Assembly: GCA_002840015.1 (NCBI GenBank)
Contig: PGZE01000008.1
Span: 1 to 64,000, forward strand
Reading direction: 5' to 3'
Length of the DNA: 64,000 nt
DNA from: Gammaproteobacteria bacterium HGW-Gammaproteobacteria-2
Lineage (GTDB): Bacteria; Pseudomonadota; Gammaproteobacteria; Xanthomonadales; Xanthomonadaceae
Below the pieces are notes generated by a model. That model saw only the letters and a program-made list of their open reading frames with translations. It was not told the origin of the DNA and did not search any database. Made by a program: the position numbers and the translations under genes. Below are positions 52,059 to 64,000 of the stretch, piece after piece; position 1 is the first letter of the stretch; each line of letters opens with the position of its first letter.

Positions 52059-52487
52059 GTGATCACTACCCTGTCTTTGCTGGTTCGGCTGTTGCTCAGC
52101 GTGACGCTGATCCTCAATGGATCAGTGGGCACGATGGCCACTGCACAGATGATGATGGGTCACGACTGGCACATGATTGATAGCGGTGCGGTCCTTGATC
52201 CGGATAATGACGACACCCTGTCATCGGCTGCGCATCCCTGCCACCCGATGCCGGGCGCGGCGGCGAATATCCCGGTCGTAACGGCGACCCCTAGCCTGCA
52301 CCATGCATCGGATTGTTGCGCGTCTGCGGATTGCCGGGACGCATGCGCACAGCATTGCGCTGCCGCCATCACTGGCACGGTGGTGGTGCAAGGCGCGGTC
52401 ATCCCGCGTGTTGCTCTGATGCTGCCGCTGCCAGCCGGCCATGTCTCGCCAGCCCTGCCGCACCTGATTCGACCACCGATCGGCTGA
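52059..52487 (+). CDS. copL: CopL-like exported Cys/His-rich protein, module A
   Basis: 142 residues, GTG start; no ATG is in frame upstream and no good ribosome-binding site is seen. N-terminal signal or anchor (LLVRLLLSVTLILNGSVG), a Met/His stretch (MMMGHDWHM), then a metal-ligand cluster HPCHPM ... HHASDCCASADC, DACAQHC, and a Pro-rich end. This matches the CopL family, which in Xanthomonas and relatives lies directly before copAB and is needed for copper-induced expression. It is followed by a 134-base leader with two strong hairpins and then copA. Similar proteins occur at 59561 and 62667. Confidence in family is fair, since such short sequences diverge quickly. Confidence 0.75.
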   Translation: MITTLSLLVRLLLSVTLILNGSVGTMATAQMMMGHDWHMIDSGAVLDPDNDDTLSSAAHPCHPMPGAAANIPVVTATPSLHHASDCCASADCRDACAQHCAAAITGTVVVQGAVIPRVALMLPLPAGHVSPALPHLIRPPIG

Positions 52488-52497
52488 ACCTCGGCAA

Positions 52498-52555
52498 CGC
52501 CTGTTCAGGCGTGCTTTCCCCTGTTCGTGTCCGTTGCGGGGCTTGCCCGCCAACG
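52498..52555 (+). promoter_or_regulatory. Two hairpins in the copL-copA leader
   Basis: 52498-52511 is CGCCTGTTCAGGCG (six-pair stem, two-base loop). 52532-52555 is a nine-pair stem, one bulge, with a GCTTG loop: CGTTGCGGGGCTTGCCCGCC followed by AACG. A T-run is lacking, so these are not classical terminators; they may attenuate or stabilise the message. Confidence 0.5.
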
Positions 52556-52621
52556 CGATGCGATGGGGTGTTCGGCTCAGGCCTCGCCTGCTGCCATCCG
52601 AATGTTGAAGAGAGGTGTTTC

Positions 52622-54400
52622 ATGTCGATCAAATCGTCCGGTTTTGCGCCGGGCCTGTCGCGTCGCCGTTTTGTCCAGGGCTTGGCGGCTGGTGGCGCTG
52701 TCGCCGGCATCGCTGGCTGGCCCAACCTGTCGTGGGCGCTGAAGTCGCCCGGGCAAACCGAAGTGTTGGCGGGCACCGACTTTTATCTGAACATCGGCGA
52801 GACGCCGGTCAACTTCACCGGCCGCAGCCGCAGCGCGATCACGGTCAACGGATCCGTGCCGGCACCCACCCTGCGCTGGCGCGAGGGCGATACCGTCAAC
52901 CTGTATGTCACCAATACTTTGCCGCCCGGCTCGATCCATGGTCAGCACACCTCGATCCACTGGCACGGCATTCTGCTGCCGGCCAACATGGACGGCGTGC
53001 CGGGCCTGAGTTTCGATGGCATCGGTCCCGGCGAAACCTGGCATTACCAATTCGCGCTACGGCAAAGCGGCACCTACTGGTACCACAGCCACTCCGGGTT
53101 TCAGGAGCAGGCCGGGCTATACGGCGCGCTCATCATCGATCCTTTGCAAGCCGAGCCATTCGCCTACCACCGCGATTACGTGGTGCTGCTGTCGGATTGG
53201 ACAGATATGGCGCCCACGGCACTGTTCGCACGCCTGAAAAAGATGTCGGACTACGACAACTACGCCAAGCGAACCGTCGGCGACTTCATCCGCGATGCGC
53301 GGCGTGACGGGTTGGCGGCAGCGGTGGCTGACCGCAAAATGTGGGGCGAGATGCGGATGACGCCGACCGATCTGTCCGATGTCAACGCCAACACCTACAC
53401 CTACCTGATGAACGGCACCACCGCACTGGGCAACTGGACCGGTCTGTTCCGCAGCGGCGAAAAAATCCGCCTGCGCTTCATCAACGGCTCGGCGATGAGT
53501 TACTTCGATGTGCGCATCCCGGGCCTGAAGATGACCGTGGTTGCCGCCGACGGCCAATACGTGCATCCGATCAGCGTGGACGAGTTCCGTATCGCAGTGG
53601 CCGAGACCTTCGACGTGATCGTCGAACCCGCAGGCCAGGACGCGTTCACCATATTCGCCCAGGACATGGGCCGCACCGGTTATGTCAGTGGCACCCTGGC
53701 GGTGCGCGAGGGCCTGCGCGCACCGCTACCGGCGCTCGACCCGCGGCCGATCCTGAGCATGGCCGACATGGGTATGGGTGGTATGGGTCATGGCGGCATG
53801 GACATGGGTGCGATGAGTGGCATGGATCACAGCGGCATGGATCACGGCAGCATGGACATGGGCGCGATGGCCGACATGCAAACGCACCCGACCAGCGAAG
53901 CGGGCAACCCATTGGTTGACATGCAAACGATGGCGCCAGTGCCGAAGCTCGACGATCCCGGCATCGGCCTGCGCGACAACGGCCGCCGGGTGCTGTGCTA
54001 TGCCGACCTGAAGAGTACGTTCGCCGATCCCGACGGCCGCGATCCGGGGCGCGAGATCGAGCTGCACCTGACCGGGCACATGGAGAAGTTCGCGTGGTCG
54101 TTCAACGGTCAGAAATTCATCGATGCCGAACCGGTGCGGTTGCGTTACGGCGAGCGGATGCGGATCACGCTGGTCAACGACACCATGATGACGCATCCGA
54201 TCCATTTGCATGGCGTGTGGAGCGATCTGGAAGACGCGCACGGCAACTTCCAGGTGCGCAAGCACACCATCGACATGCCGCCTGGCAGCAAACGCAGCTA
54301 TCGCGTGCGCGCCGACGCGCTCGGCCGCTGGGCCTACCACTGCCACCTGCTGTACCACATGGAAGCGGGAATGATGCGCGAAGTGAGGATCGAGGAATGA
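52622..54400 (+). CDS. copA: Copper-resistance multicopper oxidase CopA (PcoA-like)
   Basis: 592 residues. A twin-arginine signal (LSRRRFVQGLAAGG) exports the folded, copper-loaded enzyme to the periplasm. Three cupredoxin domains carry all type 1/2/3 copper motifs: HWHG, HSHSG, HPIHLHG and HCHLLYHMEAGM. A Met/His-rich insert near residues 375-420 (MADMGMGGMGHGGMDMG and repeats) binds extra Cu(I). It oxidises Cu(I) to less toxic Cu(II) and sequesters it. Ribosome-binding site AGAGAGG. The stop overlaps the copB start. Confidence 0.96.
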   Translation: MSIKSSGFAPGLSRRRFVQGLAAGGAVAGIAGWPNLSWALKSPGQTEVLAGTDFYLNIGETPVNFTGRSRSAITVNGSVPAPTLRWREGDTVNLYVTNTLPPGSIHGQHTSIHWHGILLPANMDGVPGLSFDGIGPGETWHYQFALRQSGTYWYHSHSGFQEQAGLYGALIIDPLQAEPFAYHRDYVVLLSDWTDMAPTALFARLKKMSDYDNYAKRTVGDFIRDARRDGLAAAVADRKMWGEMRMTPTDLSDVNANTYTYLMNGTTALGNWTGLFRSGEKIRLRFINGSAMSYFDVRIPGLKMTVVAADGQYVHPISVDEFRIAVAETFDVIVEPAGQDAFTIFAQDMGRTGYVSGTLAVREGLRAPLPALDPRPILSMADMGMGGMGHGGMDMGAMSGMDHSGMDHGSMDMGAMADMQTHPTSEAGNPLVDMQTMAPVPKLDDPGIGLRDNGRRVLCYADLKSTFADPDGRDPGREIELHLTGHMEKFAWSFNGQKFIDAEPVRLRYGERMRITLVNDTMMTHPIHLHGVWSDLEDAHGNFQVRKHTIDMPPGSKRSYRVRADALGRWAYHCHLLYHMEAGMMREVRIEE

Positions 54401-55305
54401 GCGCCATGGACGGTTCCACCGCGAAAATTCGAGTCGGCCTGTTGAGCGCGGCCATCGCGTTCGTCCTGCTGCCACCGCCGACCATCGCGCAGACGATGGA
54501 CCACACCAAGATGAAGATGCCAATGCCGGCGCAACAGCCGACACCGCCAGAGCAGTCTGCATCGGACGATCACGCGGCGGTGGCTACCAGCGAGCCGCGC
54601 ACGCCGATTCCGCCGGTAAACGATGCCGACCGCGCCGCCGCGTTCGTCGAACTCGCGCGGCCGATGGAACACGCATCGCTGGTGAACCATTTTGTGTTGC
54701 TTGATCGGCTGGAAGTGTGGGATGCCGGGCGCACTACCGGCCAGACATGGGATGGACTGGCCTGGGTCGGCACGGATATTCATCGTCTGTGGTTGCGCAG
54801 CGAGGGCGAGCGGGTCGGTAGCCGCACCGAAGCGGCCGATCTGGAAGCGCTATATGGGCGCAGCGTATCGCCTTGGTGGGATTTGCTGGTGGGCGTCAAG
54901 CACGATTTCCAGCCAGGCAACGCGCAGGACTGGCTCGCCATCGGCGTGCAGGGCCTGGCACCGTACAAGTTCGAGATGCAGGCGACCGCCTATGTCGGCG
55001 AGTCCGGGCGTACTTTGGCGCGAGTCGAGGCCGAATACGAACTGCTGCTCAGCGCACGTCTGATCCTGCAACCGCGAGTGGAAATCAACGCGTATGGAAA
55101 GGACGATCCGCAGCGCGGCATTGGTTCGGGCCTGGGTACCAGTGAGATTGGCCTGCGCCTGCGTTGGGAATGGCGTCGCGAGTTCGCGCCGTATCTCGGC
55201 GTGGTCTACGAACGTGCCTATGGCAATACCGCCGATCTACGCCGGGTGGCCGGCGAAGCCACCCACGACACCCGCCTCGTTGCGGGCATCCGTATCTGGT
55301 TCTAA
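54397..55305 (+). CDS. copB: Outer-membrane copper-resistance protein CopB
   Basis: 302 residues, start overlapping the copA stop (ATGA). Signal peptide (AAIAFVLLPPPTIAQ), a short Met-rich copper-binding segment (MDHTKMKMPMPAQQP, about 35-50), a Pro-rich linker and a beta-barrel C-terminal domain with a terminal aromatic (VAGIRIWF). CopB is thought to work with CopA at the outer membrane. The N-terminal Met/His region is shorter than in Pseudomonas CopB. Confidence 0.94.
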   Translation: MSAMDGSTAKIRVGLLSAAIAFVLLPPPTIAQTMDHTKMKMPMPAQQPTPPEQSASDDHAAVATSEPRTPIPPVNDADRAAAFVELARPMEHASLVNHFVLLDRLEVWDAGRTTGQTWDGLAWVGTDIHRLWLRSEGERVGSRTEAADLEALYGRSVSPWWDLLVGVKHDFQPGNAQDWLAIGVQGLAPYKFEMQATAYVGESGRTLARVEAEYELLLSARLILQPRVEINAYGKDDPQRGIGSGLGTSEIGLRLRWEWRREFAPYLGVVYERAYGNTADLRRVAGEATHDTRLVAGIRIWF

Positions 55306-55316
55306 AGGAGACAAAC

Positions 55317-56027
55317 ATGACTTTCATCACCCGTAAATCGATCGTGACCGGCTTCATCGTGGTCATCGCCGTGCTCGCTGCTCTGGCCGGTTTTGTCTGG
55401 TCTGGTGTCTACAATATCGGCGCAGATGAGCCGCATAGCGGCCCGATGCATGCCGTTCTGGAAACCTTGCGTGAGCGCTCCATTGCGGTGCGCGCGGACA
55501 CATTGCAGGTTCCTGATCTCAGTGACCCCGCACGCATTCGTCAGGGCGCCGGCAACTACGACGCGATGTGCGTGGGTTGTCACCTTGCGCCTGACGGGGA
55601 GGCCACCGAACTGAGCGCCGGCCTGTATCCGGCACCTCCAAATCTGAGCAAGGTGACGATCGAGGCGGCCAGTACCTTCTGGGTCATCAAGCATGGCATC
55701 AAGGCTTCGGGCATGCCGGCCTGGGGCAGGCAAATGAGTGACGAGTACCTGTGGAATCTGGTCGCGTTCGTACAGCGCCTTCCGAATCTGGATGCGAACG
55801 GTTACGCGACTTTGGTTGCAAGCAGCGAGGGGCATTCGCACGGCGGCGGAGAAACCGGGCCACATGACGAAGATGCGCCACACCAGCACCAGGAGATGCC
55901 AATGGATGCCGCCGATCCACAGCCTGCCAGCGTCGAGCATCGCCATGCCGACGGCACTATCGAATCGCATCCGGTGCCGCCAGCGACGCCGGCTGAGGCC
56001 GAACACGAGCATGACCACGACCACTGA
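55317..56027 (+). CDS. Cytochrome c with His-rich copper-binding-like tail
   Basis: 236 residues, well-placed ribosome-binding site AGGAG. N-terminal membrane anchor (IVTGFIVVIAVLAALAGFVW), one c-type haem site CVGCH (about 82-86) with Met ligand in GMPAWGRQM, and then a tail of about 80 residues full of His, Asp, Glu and Met (HSHGG, HDEDAPHQHQEMPM, EHRHADG, EHEHDHDH). The haem domain could accept electrons during Cu(I) oxidation by CopA; the tail should bind metal. It is cotranscribed with copAB (11-base gap). This pairing is not part of the classical copABCD set. Confidence 0.88.
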   Translation: MTFITRKSIVTGFIVVIAVLAALAGFVWSGVYNIGADEPHSGPMHAVLETLRERSIAVRADTLQVPDLSDPARIRQGAGNYDAMCVGCHLAPDGEATELSAGLYPAPPNLSKVTIEAASTFWVIKHGIKASGMPAWGRQMSDEYLWNLVAFVQRLPNLDANGYATLVASSEGHSHGGGETGPHDEDAPHQHQEMPMDAADPQPASVEHRHADGTIESHPVPPATPAEAEHEHDHDH

Positions 56028-56046
56028 CCCGAAGGAGCCATTGCCA

Positions 56047-56586
56047 ATGAAAACTCTCGCAACGTTTCTCGTCTGCGCGTTCGCCCTTGGCGACGCCAGC
56101 GCCGCGTCCGCACAAGCCCATCCTGATATTGCGGCACCCAAGCCGCATGCGCATTCGGCTGTTGCCGCATCGTCGATGGATGTCCCAGCCAATGCCCAGC
56201 AAGCCGTGGCTGTAGTCGATGCGTTTGGTCACGCGCTTGCCGCAGGCGACTTGAATACGGTGGAATCCTTGCTCGATGCCGAGGTGTTGATTCTGGAAAG
56301 CGGTGGCGCGGAGCGCAGTCGCGAGCAGTATCTTGGCCACCATGCCATCAGCGACGCGAGGTTCCTCAAGGACAGTCAGCGCGAGATCGCATACCGAAAA
56401 GCGCGGGTCGCGGGAGATTTGGCCTGGGTCGCCAGCGAAAGCAAAATCCAGGTTGCCAAGGACGGCAATATCCTGTCCCTGCTCAGCAGCGAAACCATGG
56501 TGCTGCGGCATGGCCCCGACGGATGGCGGATCATCCATATTCACTGGTCTTCACGCCCGCAAAAAAACAGTGGGGAAACGCCATGA
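56047..56586 (+). CDS. Exported NTF2/SnoaL-like (DUF4440) protein
   Basis: 179 residues with signal peptide (LATFLVCAFALGDASAASA), a short His/Pro segment (HPDIAAPKPHAHS), and an NTF2-like domain (about 48-170: AVAVVDAFGHALAAGDLNTV, EQYLGHHAI, GPDGWRIIHIHWSS). Ribosome-binding site AAGGAG. DUF4440 proteins commonly accompany copper operons; the ligand is unknown. The terminal sequence HIHWSS may contribute metal ligands. Confidence 0.82.
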   Translation: MKTLATFLVCAFALGDASAASAQAHPDIAAPKPHAHSAVAASSMDVPANAQQAVAVVDAFGHALAAGDLNTVESLLDAEVLILESGGAERSREQYLGHHAISDARFLKDSQREIAYRKARVAGDLAWVASESKIQVAKDGNILSLLSSETMVLRHGPDGWRIIHIHWSSRPQKNSGETP

Positions 56587-56663
56587 AGCCGAACGACAGC
56601 ACATTGCGCGTGCATGTTTTGAACGTTGCAGCCGCGATGCAGCAGCAAGGCAGCATGACGTAA
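56583..56663 (+). CDS. 26-codon frame overlapping the NTF2-like stop, doubtful
   Basis: ATGAAGCCG...ACGTAA; begins inside the stop of the NTF2-like gene (ATGA) and encodes MKPNDSTLRVHVLNVAAAMQ and six more residues. No signal or motif. It ends five bases before the -35 element of the MerR promoter. The overlap is the only reason to list it; it could be a random short frame. Confidence 0.2.
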   Translation: MKPNDSTLRVHVLNVAAAMQQQGSMT

Positions 56664-56667
56664 AGCC

Positions 56668-56699
56668 TTGACTCTGGACCATGGTCCAGGGTTCACACT
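56668..56699 (+). promoter_or_regulatory. MerR/CueR-type promoter and operator
   Basis: TTGACT (-35, 56668-56673), a spacer of 20 bases that is too long for ordinary RNA polymerase use, and CACACT (-10, about 56694-56699). The spacer holds a perfect palindrome CTGGACCATGGTCCAG (56674-56689). Overlong spacers with a central dyad are the hallmark of operators bent by MerR-family activators. It drives the regulator at 56727 and the coupled ATPase. Confidence 0.8.
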
Positions 56700-56726
56700 G
56701 GCACCAATCTTACGGGAGCAAGCACC

Positions 56727-57125
56727 ATGCACATCGGTCAATTGGCCAAACGTGCCGAAGTTCCGATTGATACTGTTCGCTATTACGAGCGTCACGGCAT
56801 TCTGCCTGAGCCGGACCGCGATATTTCGGGTTATCGTTGTTACCACCCGCTCGATGTGCGCCGCGTGCACTTTGTGCGACGGGCCAAGGCCCTCGGTTTC
56901 ACACTGCGTGAAATCAAGGAATTGTTGGCCTTGTCCGCGCCCCGGCATGGCGACGTTACGGCGATCAAGGCGCTGGCTTCGACGAAGCTGGCCGACATCG
57001 AACACCGCCTTGCCGAATTGACCCGTGTTCGCGATGGTCTGCGAACACTGGTGCAGGCGTGTCCCGGACATGGTGATATGAATCACTGCCCGATTGTTAC
57101 GGCGTTATCGGAGGAGTATGCATGA
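56727..57125 (+). CDS. CueR-like MerR-family metal regulator
   Basis: 132 residues. MerR winged helix ([20 protein letters not shown]), dimer helix, and a C-terminal metal loop [10 protein letters not shown] (Cys112 and Cys121), similar in place to the Cys112/Cys120 pair of CueR. The position equivalent to ZntR's third Cys lacks Cys ([10 protein letters not shown]), which favours a monovalent ion such as Cu(I) or Ag(I). It binds the palindrome upstream and should activate itself and the ATPase. Start overlap: its stop coincides with the ATPase start (ATGA). Confidence 0.92.
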
Positions 57126-59470
57126 GCATTCATGAGCATCAGTCAACCGGCGCTGGCGGCAACAGCGGCAACCCGCAGCACGCGCACACGGCCATCTCAG
57201 ACCCCGTTTGCGGCATGAAGGTCGATCCGGCCACGTCGAAACACCGGGCCGAACACGACGGCAAGAGCTACCATTTTTGTTCCGCGCGTTGCCACGACAA
57301 GTTCATTGCCGACCCCGCGCAATATCTTTCGGCGAAACCGGAAACTGCCCCAGCGGCAGTGCCCGCCGGCACCCTGTTCATCTGCCCGATGCACCCGCAG
57401 ATTCGTCAGGATCATCCCGGCACGTGCCCGATCTGCGGCATGGCACTGGAGCCGGAGATGCCTGGCGTTGAGGACGACGACAATCCCGAACTGCGCGACT
57501 TCAGCCGACGTTTCTGGTGGACGCTGCCGCTATCGGTGGTGGTGTTGGTATTGGCGATGTTTGGCCATCGCCTGCCATTGCTGTCTGCCGATATGCGGAC
57601 CTGGATCGAGCTGATTTTGAGTACACCGGTGGTGCTGTGGGCAGGCTGGCCATTTTTTGTGCGCTGCATCGCCTCGATTCGCAACCGCGCGCCCAATATG
57701 TGGACGCTGATCGGCATCGGTGTGTCAGCAGCGTTTGGTTACAGCGTGGTGGCTACGCTTGCGCCGGAATGGTTCCCGGCCTCGTTTCGCGAGCACGGCC
57801 GGGTCGGCGTGTACTTTGAAGCCGCTGCGGTGATCGTGTCACTGACCTTGCTCGGCCAGTTGCTGGAACTGAAGGCACGCTCGAAGACATCAGCAGCGAT
57901 CAAGGCTCTGCTCGGCCTGGCACCCAAGACCGCGCGCCGGCTGCGCGACGACGGTAGCGAAGAAGACGTTGAACTGAGCCATGTCCATGTCGACGATCGC
58001 CTGCGCGTGCGCCCTGGCGAGAAAGTGCCAGTGGACGGAGAAGTGATCGAGGGCCGCTCGCACATCGATGAGTCGATGCTGACCGGTGAACCGATGCCAG
58101 TCGAAAAGTCGGTTGGTTCGGCGGTGATCGGCGCCACCCTCAATGGCACCGGCAGTCTGGTGATTCGCGCCGGCAAAGTGGGTTCGCAGACGGTGCTCGC
58201 GCAGATCGTGCAAATGGTGGTGCAGGCGCAACGCTCGCGTGCGCCGATGCAGCGCATGGCTGACAAAGTGGCGTACTGGTTTGTGCTCGCGGTACTCACG
58301 GCTTCGGTCATCACATTTTTTGTATGGGGCTGGTTCGGCCCCGAACCGGCGTGGACTTTTGCGGTGCTCAATGCGGTTTCGGTGCTGATCATCGCCTGCC
58401 CCTGCGCACTGGGCCTGGCCACGCCAATGTCGATTATGGTCGCCACCGGGCGTGCGGCTCAGGCCGGCGTGCTGTTCCGCGATGCCGAGGCGATCGAAAA
58501 CCTGCGCAAGATCGATACCCTGATCGTGGACAAGACCGGCACCCTGACCGAAGGGCGCCCGACGTTCCGCACCATCGTGCCGGCGGACGGCTTCAGCGAG
58601 GATGAAGTGCTGCATCTCGCCGCCAGCCTCGATCAGGGCAGCGAGCACCCGCTCGCCGAAGCCATTGTTGCCGAGGCGCGACGTCGTGAACTGCGTTTGC
58701 AAACGGCGGAGACGTTCGAATCGGCCACCGGCATCGGCGTGCGCGGCGTGGTCAATGGCCGCAAACTCGCCATCGGCAACAGTGAGTTGATGCGCGATGC
58801 CGGTGTCGATCCCACGGTGATGCACGAGGCTGCCGAAGCGCTGCGCCATGAGGGCGCCAGCGTCATGTTTCTCGCTGTCGATGGACAATTGGCCGGGCTG
58901 ATCGCGGTCGCGGACCCAATCAAGGCATCCACAGCGGAAGCGATCAAGGCACTGCATGATGCCGGGTTACGCATCGTGATGGCGACAGGCGATGGCCTGA
59001 CCACCGCCAACGCGGTGGCACGTCAACTGGGGATCGACGAAGTGCACGGCGAAGTGCGTCCGGCTGACAAGATCGCGCTGGTACAGAAGCTCAAGGCCGA
59101 GGGCCACAAGGTGGCAATGGCCGGCGACGGCATCAACGACGCGCCGGCGCTGGCCGGTGCCGATGTCGGCATTGCCATGGGCACCGGTACCGACGTGGCA
59201 ATGTCCAGCGCACAGGTGACGCTGGTCAAAGGCGACTTGCGCGGCATCTTGCGGGCACGTGAGATTTCCAGCAACACGGTGGCCAACATGAAGCAGAACC
59301 TCTCTTTCGCCTTCCTTTACAACGCGCTCGGCGTGCCGATTGCGGCCGGCGTGCTGTATCCGCTGTTCGGCCTGTTGCTCAGCCCGATGATCGCAGCGCT
59401 GGCAATGAGCTTGAGTTCGGTGTCGGTAGTCAGCAATGCGCTGCGGCTGGGCCGCGCTGGACGCTTTTGA
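57122..59470 (+). CDS. Cu(I)-exporting P1B-type ATPase
   Basis: 782 residues. Instead of CXXC HMA domains it has an N-terminal His tail, a YHS domain ([10 protein letters not shown] ... CSARCHDKF) and a second metal-binding domain (ICPMHPQI ... [13 protein letters not shown]). Then come eight transmembrane helices, TGEPMPVEK, the CPC ion motif ([12 protein letters not shown]), phospho-Asp in DKTGTLT, the HP motif GSEHPLAEA and [10 protein letters not shown]. The last helices carry YNALGVP and [14 protein letters not shown], typical of copper pumps. It expels cytoplasmic Cu(I) into the periplasm, where CopA and the cytochrome would meet it. Confidence 0.95.
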
Positions 59471-59474
59471 GCGG

Positions 59475-59503
59475 CAAATCATTAATGATTTGATCACGAT
59501 CAA
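59475..59503 (+). promoter_or_regulatory. Two overlapping palindromes before module B
   Basis: 59475-59492 is a perfect 18-base palindrome CAAATCATTAATGATTTG, and 59490-59503 is TTGATCACGATCAA with six-base arms. They lie 4-32 bases after the ATPase stop and up to 60-85 bases before the CopL-like gene. This AT-rich stretch stands out from the 62-65 percent GC surroundings and looks like a transcription-factor operator rather than a terminator, since no T-run follows. Confidence 0.6.
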
Positions 59504-59560
59504 GATTGGTATCGCGATTCGATGGGAACATTGCCGCACGGCTGGAGATTGCTCACACCG

Positions 59561-59980
59561 ATGATTCGCACACAACGCCAACACCAACGCCAACGCTGGA
59601 TCGCCCTTTGGGCGATCTTGGCGTTGCTGCTCGGTCAAAATGCGTCGGCCGCGCATGCATGCATGCGTTCACCGCTCGCTGCGGCCAGTACCGCCGAGCA
59701 GACACACACCGGTCATTCCGCCGACCACGTATCGGTAACGAAGGCGTGTCCGCATTGCAGCACAGTCGCAACATCCGCCTGCATGGTGCATTGCGCCGAC
59801 CATGCCAAAGACAGCAGCCCATCCGCCAAAGTATTCGAAGTTCCGATGCTTCCGGGTCTAGGCTTCTGGCCTTTGCTTGTACGTCTCGAGTCCACGCCGA
59901 CCACGCGCGTCGGTCAGGTTGACGTGATCCGTAATGCGGACAATCGACGACTCTACGAGTTCTGCACGCTGCTGATCTAG
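59561..59980 (+). CDS. CopL-like exported Cys/His-rich protein, module B
   Basis: 139 residues from the ATG at 59561 (an ATG at 59522 gives 13 more). Signal sequence (WIALWAILALLLGQNASAAHA), then a cluster HTGHSADH, KACPHCSTVATSAC and MVHCADH, followed by a non-conserved tail ending YEFCTLLI. Ligand spacing differs from the copL at 52059, but size, location and Cys/His content match: it opens an operon of exported metal-associated proteins. A CACCG-ATTC-CGGTG hairpin follows its stop (59993-60006). Confidence 0.6.
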   Translation: MIRTQRQHQRQRWIALWAILALLLGQNASAAHACMRSPLAAASTAEQTHTGHSADHVSVTKACPHCSTVATSACMVHCADHAKDSSPSAKVFEVPMLPGLGFWPLLVRLESTPTTRVGQVDVIRNADNRRLYEFCTLLI

Positions 59981-60147
59981 TGTGCCTCGGCGCACCGATT
60001 CCGGTGTCTGCCTGCTCGATGTCCCGTTTCTCGAATCGCGGCGTTTGCCGAGTCACAGGCATCACCGCCATGCGGGTGCCGCACCACCTTCATCTTCGTT
60101 TACATCCACCGCCGCGCCGTTGGCTCGGCGAGCAAAGGACAACAACC

Positions 60148-61434
60148 ATGCGTATTCCATTGGCTACCCCATTGGCGCTCGCTGTCGGCTTCGCGCTATC
60201 CATCGCATCGCCCTGGGCATTGGCGGCATCCAGCCCGACCAACGATTCCGCCGAGCTGGCCGCGTTGCGGGCGCAGGTCGCCGAGCTGACGCGCCGCCTC
60301 GACGAACTGGCACAGAAAGCCGACAGCACACAGGCTGCTGCTCAGGCCGCGCAGGATACCGCGCAGGCGGCTGATCAACGCACCGTGCAACTGGAGCAAC
60401 AGACCCGAACGCTGGCCTCCAGCCAGGCAGGCGCCACCCGTGTGGTCTCGCATCTGGGCGGCTATGGCTTCGTCAACTTCGTTGCTCCACAAGACGGTAA
60501 CGCCGCTTTCTCGCAAGTGGGCTTCAATCCGATCTTTCATTACAGCTACGACGACAAGATATTTTTCGAAGGCGAGCTGGAGTTGGAGGCCGAGGAGGAT
60601 GGTTCGACTTCCACCGCACTCGAGTTCGCCAACATTGGTTGGCTGTTCGGCGAAAACGCCATGCTGGTCGCCGGCAAGTTTCTCAGCCCACTCGGCAATT
60701 TCCGCCAGAACCTGCATCCGGCGTGGATCAACCGCTTGGCCACCATGCCATTGGGATTCATGGATGGCGGCGCCGCACCGATCGCCGACGTTGGCTTGCA
60801 ACTGCGCGGATCGTTTTCTGCGGCAGCAGCTGGGCAGTTCACTTATGCCGGGTTCGTCACCAACGGACCGACGCTGGAAGCCGATGGTGACGAAATTGAA
60901 GCCATCGCAACCGAAGGCGGCACCGGCAACGCCGACGGTAACTTCACTGTCGGTGGTCGGGTCGGCTGGTTTCCCGTGCCAACGCTGGAAATCGCCGGTT
61001 CGTATGCCCGTGGCCGGGTCAGCGTGACCTCGATCGAAGGGGAGGAAGCGGAGGACGAACCAACACGCAGCTATCGATTCTATGGTGCTGATTTCAACTG
61101 GCAGCCGTTGCCGGGCCTTGGTGTGCGTGGCGAGTATGCGCGCCAACGTGCCGGCGGGGCAGAGGCAAGCGTTGCGCCCGATTCGGCGGTGTGGCGCACC
61201 TGGTACACGCAGGCGGCGTACCGCTTCAACGGGTTGCCATGGGAAGTTGTTGCGCGTTACGGCGATTTCAAGTCGAACAACGACATGATGTCGGCTAGTC
61301 AGTTCGGTGCCGGCCTCAACTACTGGCTGACCGCAAGCACCGTCATCAAGGCGGGTTACGAGTTCAACAATCCGGATTCGCCGATGAGTGCGGTTGGCGA
61401 CAAGTTCATCATGCAAATCGCACACGGCTTCTGA
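60148..61434 (+). CDS. Outer-membrane porin-like protein
   Basis: 428 residues. Signal peptide (LALAVGFALSIASPWALA), an N-terminal coiled coil (about 30-95, LRAQVAELTRRLDELAQ), as in OprP/OprO-type and SLH-like porins, then a beta-barrel (about 100-428) closing with a terminal Phe (FIMQIAHGF). The coiled coil could trimerise the protein or tie it to the cell wall. Ribosome-binding site AAAGGAC. Phosphate-selective type porins are the nearest shape, but the cargo is unknown; the context suggests metal or anion traffic. Confidence 0.83.
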   Translation: MRIPLATPLALAVGFALSIASPWALAASSPTNDSAELAALRAQVAELTRRLDELAQKADSTQAAAQAAQDTAQAADQRTVQLEQQTRTLASSQAGATRVVSHLGGYGFVNFVAPQDGNAAFSQVGFNPIFHYSYDDKIFFEGELELEAEEDGSTSTALEFANIGWLFGENAMLVAGKFLSPLGNFRQNLHPAWINRLATMPLGFMDGGAAPIADVGLQLRGSFSAAAAGQFTYAGFVTNGPTLEADGDEIEAIATEGGTGNADGNFTVGGRVGWFPVPTLEIAGSYARGRVSVTSIEGEEAEDEPTRSYRFYGADFNWQPLPGLGVRGEYARQRAGGAEASVAPDSAVWRTWYTQAAYRFNGLPWEVVARYGDFKSNNDMMSASQFGAGLNYWLTASTVIKAGYEFNNPDSPMSAVGDKFIMQIAHGF

Positions 61435-61445
61435 GGAGACCTGAC

Positions 61446-62096
61446 ATGAACCTTATTCACAGCACCCTTTTACGCGCGTGCGCGGTTGGCCTGATTGCGA
61501 TGGCAACTCCGTTCGCAACCGTTTCTGCCGCACCCGTGGCTGAGTCGGCGCAGCCTGCGAACGACCCGATGACGTTTGCCCGTGGCGCACAAGCCTGGGC
61601 CGATACGTGCGCTCGCTGTCACAATTTTCGCGACCCCAGGGAGTTCAGCGACGTGCAGTGGCGTGCGGTCATGCTGCACATGCGTATCCGAGCCAACCTG
61701 TCTGGCCAGCAGGCACGCGACATTCTCGGCTTTCTACAAGGTAGCAATGATCCGGCGGCGGTGATGTTCGCCCCGACCATGGCGGCGTCAACATCTGCCA
61801 CTGCGGTGGCCGGACCAGGCACTGAACCCGCCGTGTTGTTCAACCAGACCTGCGTTGCCTGCCATGGTGCCAACGGCAAGGGTGCGCTGGCCGGTATTCC
61901 AGATTTCACGTCCGCGCAAGGGCCGCTGGCGCGCAAGACCGACGCCCAACTCGCGGAGAGCATTCTCAACGGCCTGCAAACGCCGGGCGCGGCAATGGCA
62001 ATGCCTGCACAGGGCGGCAATCCGGCCGTCACGGAGTCCGATGCCGCCGCATTGGCCCATTATCTGCGCGCGCAGTTCTACGGCGGGTCGCGATGA
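61446..62096 (+). CDS. Dihaem cytochrome c
   Basis: 216 residues, 11 bases after the porin stop, with GAGGAG upstream. Signal peptide (LLRACAVGLIAMATPFATVSA), then two c-type haem sites CARCH (about 55-59) and CVACH (about 135-139). The first domain is short, resembling a degenerate c553 unit, and the second is a class I fold with a candidate Met ligand in AMAMPAQGG. Periplasmic electron carrier; possible electron acceptor for an oxidase or donor during metal reduction or oxidation. Confidence 0.88.
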   Translation: MNLIHSTLLRACAVGLIAMATPFATVSAAPVAESAQPANDPMTFARGAQAWADTCARCHNFRDPREFSDVQWRAVMLHMRIRANLSGQQARDILGFLQGSNDPAAVMFAPTMAASTSATAVAGPGTEPAVLFNQTCVACHGANGKGALAGIPDFTSAQGPLARKTDAQLAESILNGLQTPGAAMAMPAQGGNPAVTESDAAALAHYLRAQFYGGSR

Positions 62097-62218
62097 ATCG
62101 TAGTGGCTGCCGTACCAGGCAGGTGTGACGTACCGTTTTGTGGCCACGGATGGCCACGAACTACCGCAGGCTGGTATGCCGCTGCGGCCCCATGGTTTCA
62201 ACACAACGAGGTGATGTC

Positions 62219-62620
62219 ATGAATGGTTCAAGCAAAAGCATTCGCTGTTTGCGGGCGTTTCGTGGTGTACCGTCTCGGCGCACCATGATCGCCGCCCTGA
62301 GTGGCCTGTTGCTCGCCGGCAGCGTCAGCGCCGGCCCGGTCTACCATAAACTGGTCATGCAAGGCCAGGTGCTGTCGGTGGACGGCGATACGCTGGTGGT
62401 CTGCATTGGCAAGGACGATGGTGCCGAGGTTGGTCAAGAACTGAAACTGGTGCGGCATGTGCGCAGCAGCGCGGCGCCCAAGGCGGGCGGTCCCGGCTTC
62501 CGCCGCGAGGTGATTGGCAAGGTGCGCATCTACAAGATTTTCAATGAGCACTACGCAGGCGCCGAGGTGGTGCTGGGCGCTGCGCGCGAGAGCGACATGG
62601 TGGAGCTGGAAAGCAAGTGA
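62219..62620 (+). CDS. Exported FlgT_C-like small protein
   Basis: 133 residues with a long signal sequence containing RRTMIAALSGLLLAGSVSAG (a near twin-arginine stretch). The mature part is a two-strand-repeat barrel: GQVLSVDGDTLVVCIGKDDG, AEVGQELKLVRHV and VIGKVRIYKIFNEHYAGAEV. It resembles the C-terminal domain of FlgT and related SH3-like exported domains. A lone Cys in VVCIG could bind metal. Unknown function; the last gene of module B, 122 bases after the cytochrome. Confidence 0.65.
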   Translation: MNGSSKSIRCLRAFRGVPSRRTMIAALSGLLLAGSVSAGPVYHKLVMQGQVLSVDGDTLVVCIGKDDGAEVGQELKLVRHVRSSAAPKAGGPGFRREVIGKVRIYKIFNEHYAGAEVVLGAARESDMVELESK

Positions 62621-62666
62621 CCGCCATGCCCGCCAGTGGCCATAATCTACGGCAATACTCCGCGCT

Positions 62667-63071
62667 ATGAACCGTCGCACCGCCAAGCGCCTGTTCGCCA
62701 TCGCCGGCCGTTTGCTGCTGGCGGTGTCGCTGGTATTTTCGACCGGGCCGTGGGCGTCGGTGCTGGCGTCGGTGCAGGCCGGCGATTGCCAGCATATGAT
62801 GAGCACCGCGCAACATGGCTCGGCAAGCACAAACTACGATTGCTGCCCGGATGCGCGTGGCGATCACGGCATACCCGACTGCGGCAAATACGCTTCGCCA
62901 TGTAGCGGCATTTGCAATGCAGTGTGCGGGTTGGCTTGGTCTGGTCCGGTACCTGCTGCGTTGGCATTTGCCGGCTTGCCGGTGATTGCGGTAGCGCCGC
63001 TCCCGCGTTCGGGCATGCACGCGCCGACGCTATTCACATCTCCGGCACTGCGACCGCCGATTTCCATCTGA
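62667..63071 (+). CDS. CopL-like exported Cys/His-rich protein, module C
   Basis: 134 residues. Signal sequence (LFAIAGRLLLAVSLVFSTG), then GDCQHMMSTAQHG, YDCCPDARGDH, PDCGKYASPCSGICNAVCG and a Pro-rich end. Closest of the two copies to the copL at 52059 (CC pair, Met pair, C-x-x-x-C tail). It is followed by an eight-pair hairpin with a GCTT loop (63085-63104), and then the TolC-type gene, so it opens a third export unit. Confidence 0.68.
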   Translation: MNRRTAKRLFAIAGRLLLAVSLVFSTGPWASVLASVQAGDCQHMMSTAQHGSASTNYDCCPDARGDHGIPDCGKYASPCSGICNAVCGLAWSGPVPAALAFAGLPVIAVAPLPRSGMHAPTLFTSPALRPPISI

Positions 63072-63084
63072 TTGCCTGATCGCT

Positions 63085-63104
63085 CCGGTCGCGCTTGCGA
63101 CTGG
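63085..63104 (+). promoter_or_regulatory. Hairpin between module C CopL-like gene and TolC gene
   Basis: CCGGTCGCGCTTGCGACTGG: eight-pair stem (one G-T pair) with GCTT loop. The copL-copA leader hairpin at 52532-52555 shares the same GCTTG loop. It is 16 bases before the ATG at 63121, so could affect initiation. Confidence 0.45.
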
Positions 63105-63120
63105 CCGTTGATTGCAATGG

Positions 63121-64000
63121 ATGGAAATCCTCATGATCTGTTTTTTATTGAGTCGTCGCGCCTGCGTGCGCGGCAGTAACGCCTCTGTACCAACCCCGAC
63201 ACCGTCGGCCGCCATCCGTGTCGTGCAGCGCTGTGCACAACGCACACGCGTCGCTGCATTGCTGTTGCTGGCGCTGACTGCCGTGGCGGTGAATGCACAG
63301 GCGCAGCCCGAATCCGGCCCATTGGTGGTCGAACTCTCCTTGCCCGAAGCCCTGCGTATTGCGGTGGACGGCAATCCCGGGCTAGCGGAGATGCGCGAGC
63401 GGGCGCTGGCGGCGGCACAGGTGCCATCGCAGGCCGGCACCTTGCCCGACCCGAAGCTGAACTTCAATGCGCTCAACCTGCCGGTAGACACCTTCAGCCG
63501 CAGCCAGGAAGCGATGACCCAGATGCAGTTCGGGGTCAGTCAGAGTTTCCCGTTCCCCGGCACCTTGCGCTTGCGCCGCGAGGCGGCCACGTATGAGGCG
63601 GAAGCGGCCAGCCTGTCGGTCGTCGAGACCCGGCTGCGGCTGTTGCGTGATGTCAAGAAAGCCTGGTGGGAATTGGCGTATCTCGACCGCGCGGTGGCGA
63701 TCATCAGCGACAACTTGACCCTGATCGATCAATTCATCGACATCGCCAACACCAAGTACAGCGTCGGCAAGGGATTGCAGCAGGATGTGCTGCTCGGTCA
63801 GGTGGAACGCGGTCGCCTGCATGATCGCATGCTGCAACTGCGGGGCATGCGCGGAGTCATTGCCGCGCGACTCAATGCCTTGCTGGCGCGGCCACCCAAT
63901 GCGCTGGTGAGATTGCCGGAGCGGATTGACGAAGCCTTGCCCTCGCTGCCGATGCCGGGGCGTTTCATCAGCGAAGCCGAACAACAGCGCCCGCTGCTGG
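63121..64000 (+). CDS. TolC-family outer-membrane channel (CusC/CzcC-like), 3' end outside window
   Basis: About 293 residues visible. A long N-terminus with basic residues and a signal (RVAALLLLALTAVAVNAQAQ) is followed by the first OEP repeat: LSLPEALRIAVDGNPGLAEM, then GTLPDPKLNFNA, QMQFGVSQSFPFPGTLRLRR (substrate-channel strands) and LRLLRDVKKAWWELAYLDRA. This is the periplasm-spanning outer-membrane partner of RND metal pumps such as CusCBA and CzcCBA; cusB/cusA-like genes are expected beyond the window. ATGs at 63121 and 63133 are both possible. Follows the module C CopL-like gene by 49 bases. Confidence 0.9.
   Translation, partial: MEILMICFLLSRRACVRGSNASVPTPTPSAAIRVVQRCAQRTRVAALLLLALTAVAVNAQAQPESGPLVVELSLPEALRIAVDGNPGLAEMRERALAAAQVPSQAGTLPDPKLNFNALNLPVDTFSRSQEAMTQMQFGVSQSFPFPGTLRLRREAATYEAEAASLSVVETRLRLLRDVKKAWWELAYLDRAVAIISDNLTLIDQFIDIANTKYSVGKGLQQDVLLGQVERGRLHDRMLQLRGMRGVIAARLNALLARPPNALVRLPERIDEALPSLPMPGRFISEAEQQRPLL

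Follow-up and report, generated by a model that had tools for sequence, protein, structure and literature searches.

Exported Cys/His-rich leaders before metal-export genes of a xanthomonad: conserved tails, stop-codon pairing and a candidate role as nascent-chain metal sensors

What is the role of a small exported Cys/His-rich protein that stands before metal-export genes, and do several such proteins in one genome share a mode of action? The question is raised by the first 64,000 nucleotides (nt) of contig PGZE01000008.1 of Gammaproteobacteria bacterium HGW-Gammaproteobacteria-2 (Xanthomonadaceae), the window analysed here. A first-pass annotation had pointed to three such open reading frames (ORFs), at 52059, 59561 and 62667, here leaders 1, 2 and 3, and had read them as three CopL-like leaders giving one regulatory logic to several export machines. 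The three ORFs were confirmed, all with a hydrophobic N-terminus and a Cys/His-rich middle; signal peptides were assigned by eye throughout. The feature is real and conserved, and a common logic is plausible. Leaders 1 and 3, and leader 2 on the strength of its family membership, are probably cis-acting nascent-chain metal sensors of the type described for CutF.

In such a sensor the leader would be exported during its own translation. In the absence of copper its synthesis would run to the end and the chain would be freed, and the mRNA surrounding the leader stop codon would fold onto the next ribosome-binding site (RBS), keeping the next gene silent. Cu(I), perhaps also Ag(I), would bind the Cys/His cluster some 38-57 residues before the tail and hinder movement of the chain. 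The C-terminal motif (RPPI-x-stop or, in the family of leader 2, L-L-I-stop) would then hold the ribosome at the leader end, where it would cover or melt the 5' arm of the stem, expose the next start site and turn the export gene on. Copper binding, ribosome arrest and the direction of the response are inferred from CutF and CruR. Action through leader translation, one of the earlier suggestions, is supported by conserved C-terminal tails and by a coevolving stop/RBS pairing in two families.

Leader families and their tails

Against the CopL model NF033807 (curated cut-off 40 bits) leader 1 scores 106.2 bits and is CopL; leader 3 scores 19.2 bits over residues 15-132 of 134, under the cut-off, and leader 2 gives no match up to E = 10 and no Pfam or NCBIfam family above cut-off. 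The description of all three as CopL-like is therefore not borne out. In profile-profile comparison (hhalign) the family of leader 2, hereafter the second family, reaches a probability of 9.5% against CopL and 11.1% against leader 3; leader 3 against CopL reaches 95.2%, but spanning only 18 signal-peptide columns. By these scores leader 2 is unrelated in sequence to CopL, and leader 3 is a distant CopL relative. DUF2946 (PF11162, gathering score 23.7) gives 8.3 bits (E = 5) with leader 2 and no match with leaders 1 and 3. The CutF-like filter of PMC9973294 (<150 amino acids, a signal peptide, PP in the last 15 residues, next gene on the same strand within 1000 nt) is passed on sequence by leaders 1 and 3. 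Leader 2 fails it on the PP, its tail being ADNRRLYEFCTLLI; some relatives show DPPPRLRFCSLLI.

CopL is widespread in the taxonomic family, with NF033807 matches in 158 of 198 genomes, 144 of them over the cut-off. Ninety-one copies were read (30 loci, 60 taken from the listed matches, and leader 1). RPPI lies near the stop in every one, as RPPI-x-stop in 90 and as RPPIGQVS-stop in the other; RAPP or RGPP near the C-terminus is not found in CopL tails, which have RPPI in its place. In an alignment of 137 columns and 89 distinct rows, conservation at 100% is confined to the four residues of RPPI and a single Cys, and 18 columns reach at least 80%. The Cys residues lie at a similar distance from the tail in both leaders that carry RPPI: 38-52 residues upstream of RPP in leader 1, plus one at 77, and 42-57 in leader 3, plus 69, 70 and 88. 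In CruR (PMC9426467) and CutF (PMC9973294) this spacing is 45 residues.

A codon bias falls on the same motif. Of 91 CopL copies, 80 encode the Arg of RPPI by the rare CGA, which makes up 81 of the 1870 Arg codons counted as background at the same loci; for the first Pro, CCT is used in 75 of 91 copies (background 213 of 2554). All these counts come from related and not independent copies. CGA is also used in leaders 1 and 3 themselves and in three of six copies of the leader 3 type. A CGA codon followed by CCN can decode slowly, as known from work in yeast. For CCT there is an alternative, since the bias may instead reflect RNA pairing, CCUCC being complementary to the Shine-Dalgarno (SD) sequence.

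The next gene carries the CopA twin-arginine translocation (Tat) motif in 83 of the 91 CopL loci; in the remaining eight it looks like a TonB-dependent receptor, a cytochrome or an outer-membrane lipoprotein. CopL-type leaders stand before TonB-dependent-receptor-like genes (by eye) at loci L106, L118, L121, L129 and L133, and the leader may thus have been reused for non-export genes. Leader 1 resembles the CopL of Xanthomonas and Stenotrophomonas in scoring above the cut-off, in the copL-copA-copB order and in the RPPIG tail, whereas leader 3 lies below the cut-off and leader 2 is unmatched. With L061 as query, 21 Xanthomonas plasmids were found; plasmid searches with leader 1, one second-family protein and L099 gave no matches. 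The X. vesicatoria plasmid pLM159.1 has the order copL-copA-copB, as at leader 1, and a Xanthomonas plasmid CopL ends in HLIRPPIG, its fold pairing CUAAGCGUC with GACGCUUGG.

In resistance-gene annotation CopL is a transcriptional regulator, and its mode of action is a matter of suggestion in the literature examined. The AMRFinder name 'transcriptional regulator CopL' would imply action in trans, and copL has been assumed possibly to control czc and cus operons too (PMC10924375). Such a regulator is most improbable here, as CopL is exported (by eye), matches no DNA-binding domain and is reported not to be trans-acting (PMC9973294, citing Voloudakis 2005).

Of the leader 3 type five copies occur in four genomes of one genus (three besides its own), all ending RPPIS(I/L), and in a sampled draw from the order its profile matches 3 of 299 genomes, its own included. 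More distant relatives keep the motif, with RPPISA before an apparent CusB-type adaptor in the same taxonomic family (L010), RPPISI in another family of the order (L223), and RPPIS before an apparent efflux channel (L169). One copy is a paralogue, a fourth leader beyond the window at contig 70374-70775 (L045:8374-8778), 7.7 kb downstream and 67% identical to leader 3, which stands before another TolC and another CusA/CzcA pump and has the same stop/RBS stem. The adaptor gene of that second efflux set (L045:10006-11350) is apparently split over two frames, by frameshift, pseudogene formation or assembly error.

A profile built on 11 members of the second family has matches in 98 of the 297 genomes searched in the taxonomic family, spread over 34 of 54 genera. 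All 81 members read, some near-identical, end in L-(L/Q)-I-stop (LLI in 74, LQI in 7), in two tail types, WHRPT-HPA-LLLI and DPPPRLRFCSL(L/Q)I, of which leader 2 resembles the latter. The family precedes a TolC homologue in 74 of 81 loci; the next gene is a porin in two (the present genome and its congener L149) and has no match in the stretch examined in five. Loci L228 and L229, from other families, end in FLI and LLI before an efflux-channel-like gene (by eye). Across the class the CopL and second-family profiles each find 4 of 321 genomes, the present one included, which makes both scarce elsewhere in the class at the profile sensitivity used.

Pairing of leader stops with the next ribosome-binding site

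At leader 3 the mRNA from 63045 to 63160 folds with z -5.5 (0 of 200 shuffles as good), and a longer stretch, 62990-63139, with z -2.35 (2 of 200); the paralogue and three congeners share the fold at z -2.3 to -3.6. When arms were shuffled 2000 times, the observed pairing was reached 33 times for leader 1, 6 for leader 3 and 4 for its paralogue. Local folds that do not span both arms are unremarkable for leader 1 (z -1.8, -1.2) and leader 2 (z -1.9, -0.1).

GC-rich hairpins with a GCTTG loop had been noted at two of the junctions, and they are present (52536-52550 and about 63085-63104). The loop was rejected as a common signal, being kept in 2 of 6 copies of the leader 3 junction, while all 6 share the underlying GC-rich stem, both strands of which show changes. 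Hairpin and stem would suit control by attenuation, which is nevertheless very unlikely: none of the three leader gaps holds a terminator-like site, Rfam gave no matches, and the stem is conserved because the hairpin forms the top of the longer stop/RBS stem.

The family-wide evidence comes from a coevolution test in which the contiguous helix between a locus's own stop arm and RBS arm was compared with helices formed after swapping arms between loci. Nine of the 91 CopL loci, with identical junctions, were removed beforehand. In the other 82 no swap in 5000 reached the own helix (z 5.8), and three displaced controls gave -1.8, 0.1 and -2.1. After thinning by shared 3-mers (0.35 and 0.6), 65 CopL and 50 second-family loci remained. 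In the thinned CopL set the maximum, z 8.3, falls in the window from -9 to +8 relative to the stop, with 6.3 at -3, 4.5 at -15 and 2.9 at -21; the other 20 windows lie between -1.8 and 1.9, and the 3' arm peaks at start-30..+3. The pairs AAGCGUC/GACGCUU, AAGUGUC/GACACUU, GAUUGACC/GGUCAAUC and GACCUGUC/GACAGGUU illustrate how both arms change together. In the second family, where 9 of 81 loci without a clear start and 10 identical junctions had been removed, pooled values are 5.2, 6.3 and 5.0 at -9, -3 and +3 (other windows -1.1 to 2.5), and within the tail types, at 25 loci each, z at -3 is 4.6 (HP type) and 2.8 (FCSL(L/Q)I type).

Two unrelated junctions served as controls, each with 25 of 30 loci. 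For rplJ-rplL (five with gaps <34 nt excluded, rplJ stops set without motif check) z ranges from -1.4 to 1.5. For groES-groEL it ranges from -0.2 to 1.4; GroES was identified by motif in 27 of 30, and gaps of at least 45 nt left 25, wrong stops (gaps 4-156 nt) having given 3.0-4.9 with overlapping arms. CopL subsamples of 25 loci keep a median z of 5.0 (5-95% 3.3 to 6.7).

Could the leaders instead work as finished periplasmic copper-binding proteins or chaperones, the stem being ordinary translational coupling within an operon? Their signal peptides (by eye) and Cys/His clusters agree with this, the controls are limited to two ordinary junctions, and a C. metallidurans protein named CopL is cys-rich, though described as cytosolic (PMC7563307). 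However, neither control junction shows such coevolution, the tail is invariant to the stop while the remainder drifts, the rare-codon bias falls precisely at the motif, and exported CutF is rapidly degraded (PMC9973294). Such a role of the finished protein is accordingly improbable.

Several observations weigh against the sensor reading. A wider-window duplex energy did not differ between own and swapped arms at 74 loci (p 0.415); the narrow contiguous-helix score was adopted after this failed test, with the sequences already inspected, a choice checked by the positional scan, the second family, the two unrelated junctions and the size-matched subsamples. Taken one by one, just 26 of 91 CopL and 19 of 62 second-family loci show significant pairing, and the Xanthomonas plasmid CopL does not (282 of 2000 shuffles). 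The junction of leader 2 has no stem, 1627 of 2000 shuffles reaching the observed pairing, and the best helix of its congener is just 5 base pairs. Within the second-family tail types off-target windows rise to z 2.6 (HP type) and 2.3-2.5 (FCSL(L/Q)I type), and the within-type values outweigh the pooled ones because pooling swaps arms between the two types. Both the CopL and the second-family profiles contain the tail, so that its conservation arises partly by selection, and the copies are related; the contrast between tail and rest of the protein in CopL is still strong despite this. RPPI lacks the Ala of RAPP, the motif with proven arrest, and the CutF tail alone did not stall in E. coli (PMC9973294). 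The stop/RBS stem is hence a trend of the families and not a proof for each copy.

Relation to known leader systems

The general principle is already published: CutF, CruR and the suggestion that CopL is CutF-like are in print (PMC9973294, PMC9426467). In cutFOG of Rhodobacter capsulatus the nascent exported CutF binds copper through a Cys motif, its Pro-rich tail delays release, and the stem that covers the next RBS opens as a result (PMC9973294). In that paper CopL is named as possibly isofunctional with CutF, both genes being not trans-acting, and OEP genes are given as the most frequent neighbours of CutF-like genes. CusD, SilD and CzcI are classed there as CutF-like, the first two being so labelled in a figure legend. 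The likeness to CutF, drawn from its published description, lies in a small exported protein with Cys residues upstream of a multicopper oxidase, a Pro-rich C-terminus, a stem over the next RBS (predicted here for leaders 1 and 3, absent at leader 2) and the same Cys spacing. CopL and the second family differ in that their pairing begins at the leader stop and coevolves with the RBS, and the last four residues of second-family members include no Pro. CusD and SilD of C. metallidurans precede cusCBA and silCBA (cusDCBAF, silDCBA; PMC7563307), as leader 3 precedes its efflux set, a comparison of gene position only. The RAPP/RGPP arrest peptides (ApdA, ApdP and others; PMC10951233, where RAPP arrest structures are described, and PMC12992588) share a C-terminal Pro-Pro motif with a nearby Arg before regulated genes, whereas RPPI has no Ala or Gly between Arg and Pro.

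CruR of Bordetella pertussis, a DUF2946 protein, is likewise a cis-acting copper-sensing leader with a C-terminal arrest motif, of opposite sign to CutF: it has a RAPP tail instead of RPPI, a CXXC motif at the Cys spacing given above, and depends on Rho, copper lowering expression (PMC9426467); its arrest was later demonstrated in vitro (PMC12992588). A mechanism of that type, in which copper relieves arrest and Rho ends transcription between leader and next gene, would suit the long gap of leader 2 (167 nt) with no RBS stem, CruR homologues having generally long gaps (PMC9426467). For the loci described here it is nonetheless unlikely, since most of the genes serve export or detoxification and would be expected to rise with copper, and since both families show coevolving RBS pairing, a feature not required under Rho control.

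The RNA partner sites, the second tail type and the shared codon choice look like new details. Neither the RPPI-x-stop invariance nor the stop/RBS coevolution nor the LLI family was found in the literature examined, its supplementary files being outside the scope. No paper in the search held both 'CopL' and 'arrest peptide'; among the matches listed PMC9973294 alone ties CopL to translation, by listing it, and neither 'CopL' nor 'Xanthomonas' occurs in the main text of PMC12992588.

A more tentative proposal, which may well prove wrong, concerns the tails. The second family might be a new class of metal-sensing arrest peptide with LLI at the stop, in which the ribosome is held at termination and not at a Pro-Pro bond, and CopL might combine two brakes, the RPPI peptide and its codons, where a conserved rare CGA has CCU after it in most cases. 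The leader literature examined describes no such combination of peptide and codon.

Should CopL indeed sense copper in cis, as a protein sacrificed in the act and read out through the ribosome, typing schemes that treat copL as a regulator gene would have to be revised. The copL-copA junctions of the family would then provide many natural variants of both stem arms for the study of nascent-chain sensing, and an arrest signal of different chemistry would come from the second family.

Gene neighbourhood and metals

The features of the window are collected in Table 1. The neighbours claimed earlier were confirmed, namely CopA, CopB and a c-type cytochrome after leader 1, a porin-like protein and a dihaem cytochrome after leader 2, and a TolC-like protein after leader 3. 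The gaps between leader and next gene, claimed as 50-170 bases, measure 134 nt to copA, 167 nt to the porin-like gene and 61 nt to tolC at the preferred starts. For tolC the candidates are TTG 63112, ATG 63121 and ATG 63133, of which the last is favoured by conservation among five copies.

Table 1. Leaders, predicted stem arms and neighbouring genes in the window
Feature	Coordinates	Strand	Basis and remarks
Leader 1, CopL, exported Cys/His-rich	52059..52487	+	142 amino acids, GTG start, tail HLIRPPIG-stop; NF033807 106.2 bits, residues 7-142
RPPI codons CGA CCA CCG ATC, putative arrest motif	52470..52481	+	read from sequence
Leader 1 stem, 5' arm: last codons, stop and 5 nt	52478..52492	+	minimum-energy fold of whole junction
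Leader 1 stem, 3' arm: copA SD and start codon region	52612..52630	+	fold, arm pairing
copA, multicopper oxidase with Tat signal	52622..54400	+	TIGR01480, 1040.5 bits
copB	54397..55305	+	PF05275, 286.9 bits
c-type cytochrome	55317..56027	+	PF13442, 56 bits
Leader 2, exported Cys/His-rich, unnamed leader family	59561..59980	+	139 amino acids, tail FCTLLI-stop
Porin-like protein after leader 2	60148..61434	+	no family above cut-off
Dihaem cytochrome c	61446..62096	+	PF00034, 55 bits, 2 stretches
Leader 3, distant CopL relative	62667..63071	+	134 amino acids, tail ALRPPISI-stop; NF033807 19.2 bits
Leader 3 stem, 5' arm: codons after RPP, stop and 4 nt	63059..63075	+	fold, shuffles
Leader 3 stem, 3' arm: SD region before preferred tolC start	63114..63129	+	fold, shuffles
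tolC, channel of CusCBA/CzcCBA-like efflux set, extends beyond window	63133..63999	+	TIGR01844, 100.8 bits, cut-off 225 not reached

The earlier suggestion that the three leaders may answer to different metals is neither supported nor excluded by the families matched. Copper is indicated by CopA, CopB and a P-ATPase of the Cu type at 57122 (TIGR01511, 596 bits against a cut-off of 397), and a MerR-type regulator at 56727 stays below all NCBIfam cut-offs shown. After tolC follow a CusB-like adaptor (NF007303, 175.8 bits, below the cut-off of 390) and a CusA/CzcA pump (TIGR00914, 1259 bits, above cut-off), of a family that moves Zn, Co and Cd as well as Cu and Ag. To the porin-cytochrome unit after leader 2 no metal can be assigned from the families matched.

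A search of the window gave 7 terminator-like sites (10.0 expected) and 2 promoter-like sites (3.1 expected), one of which, at 62617-62646, lies 20 nt upstream of leader 3. Between the dihaem cytochrome and leader 3, at 62219-62617, stands a further small exported protein that weakly resembles ExtJ of selenite/tellurite reduction operons (20 bits, cut-off 52.5).

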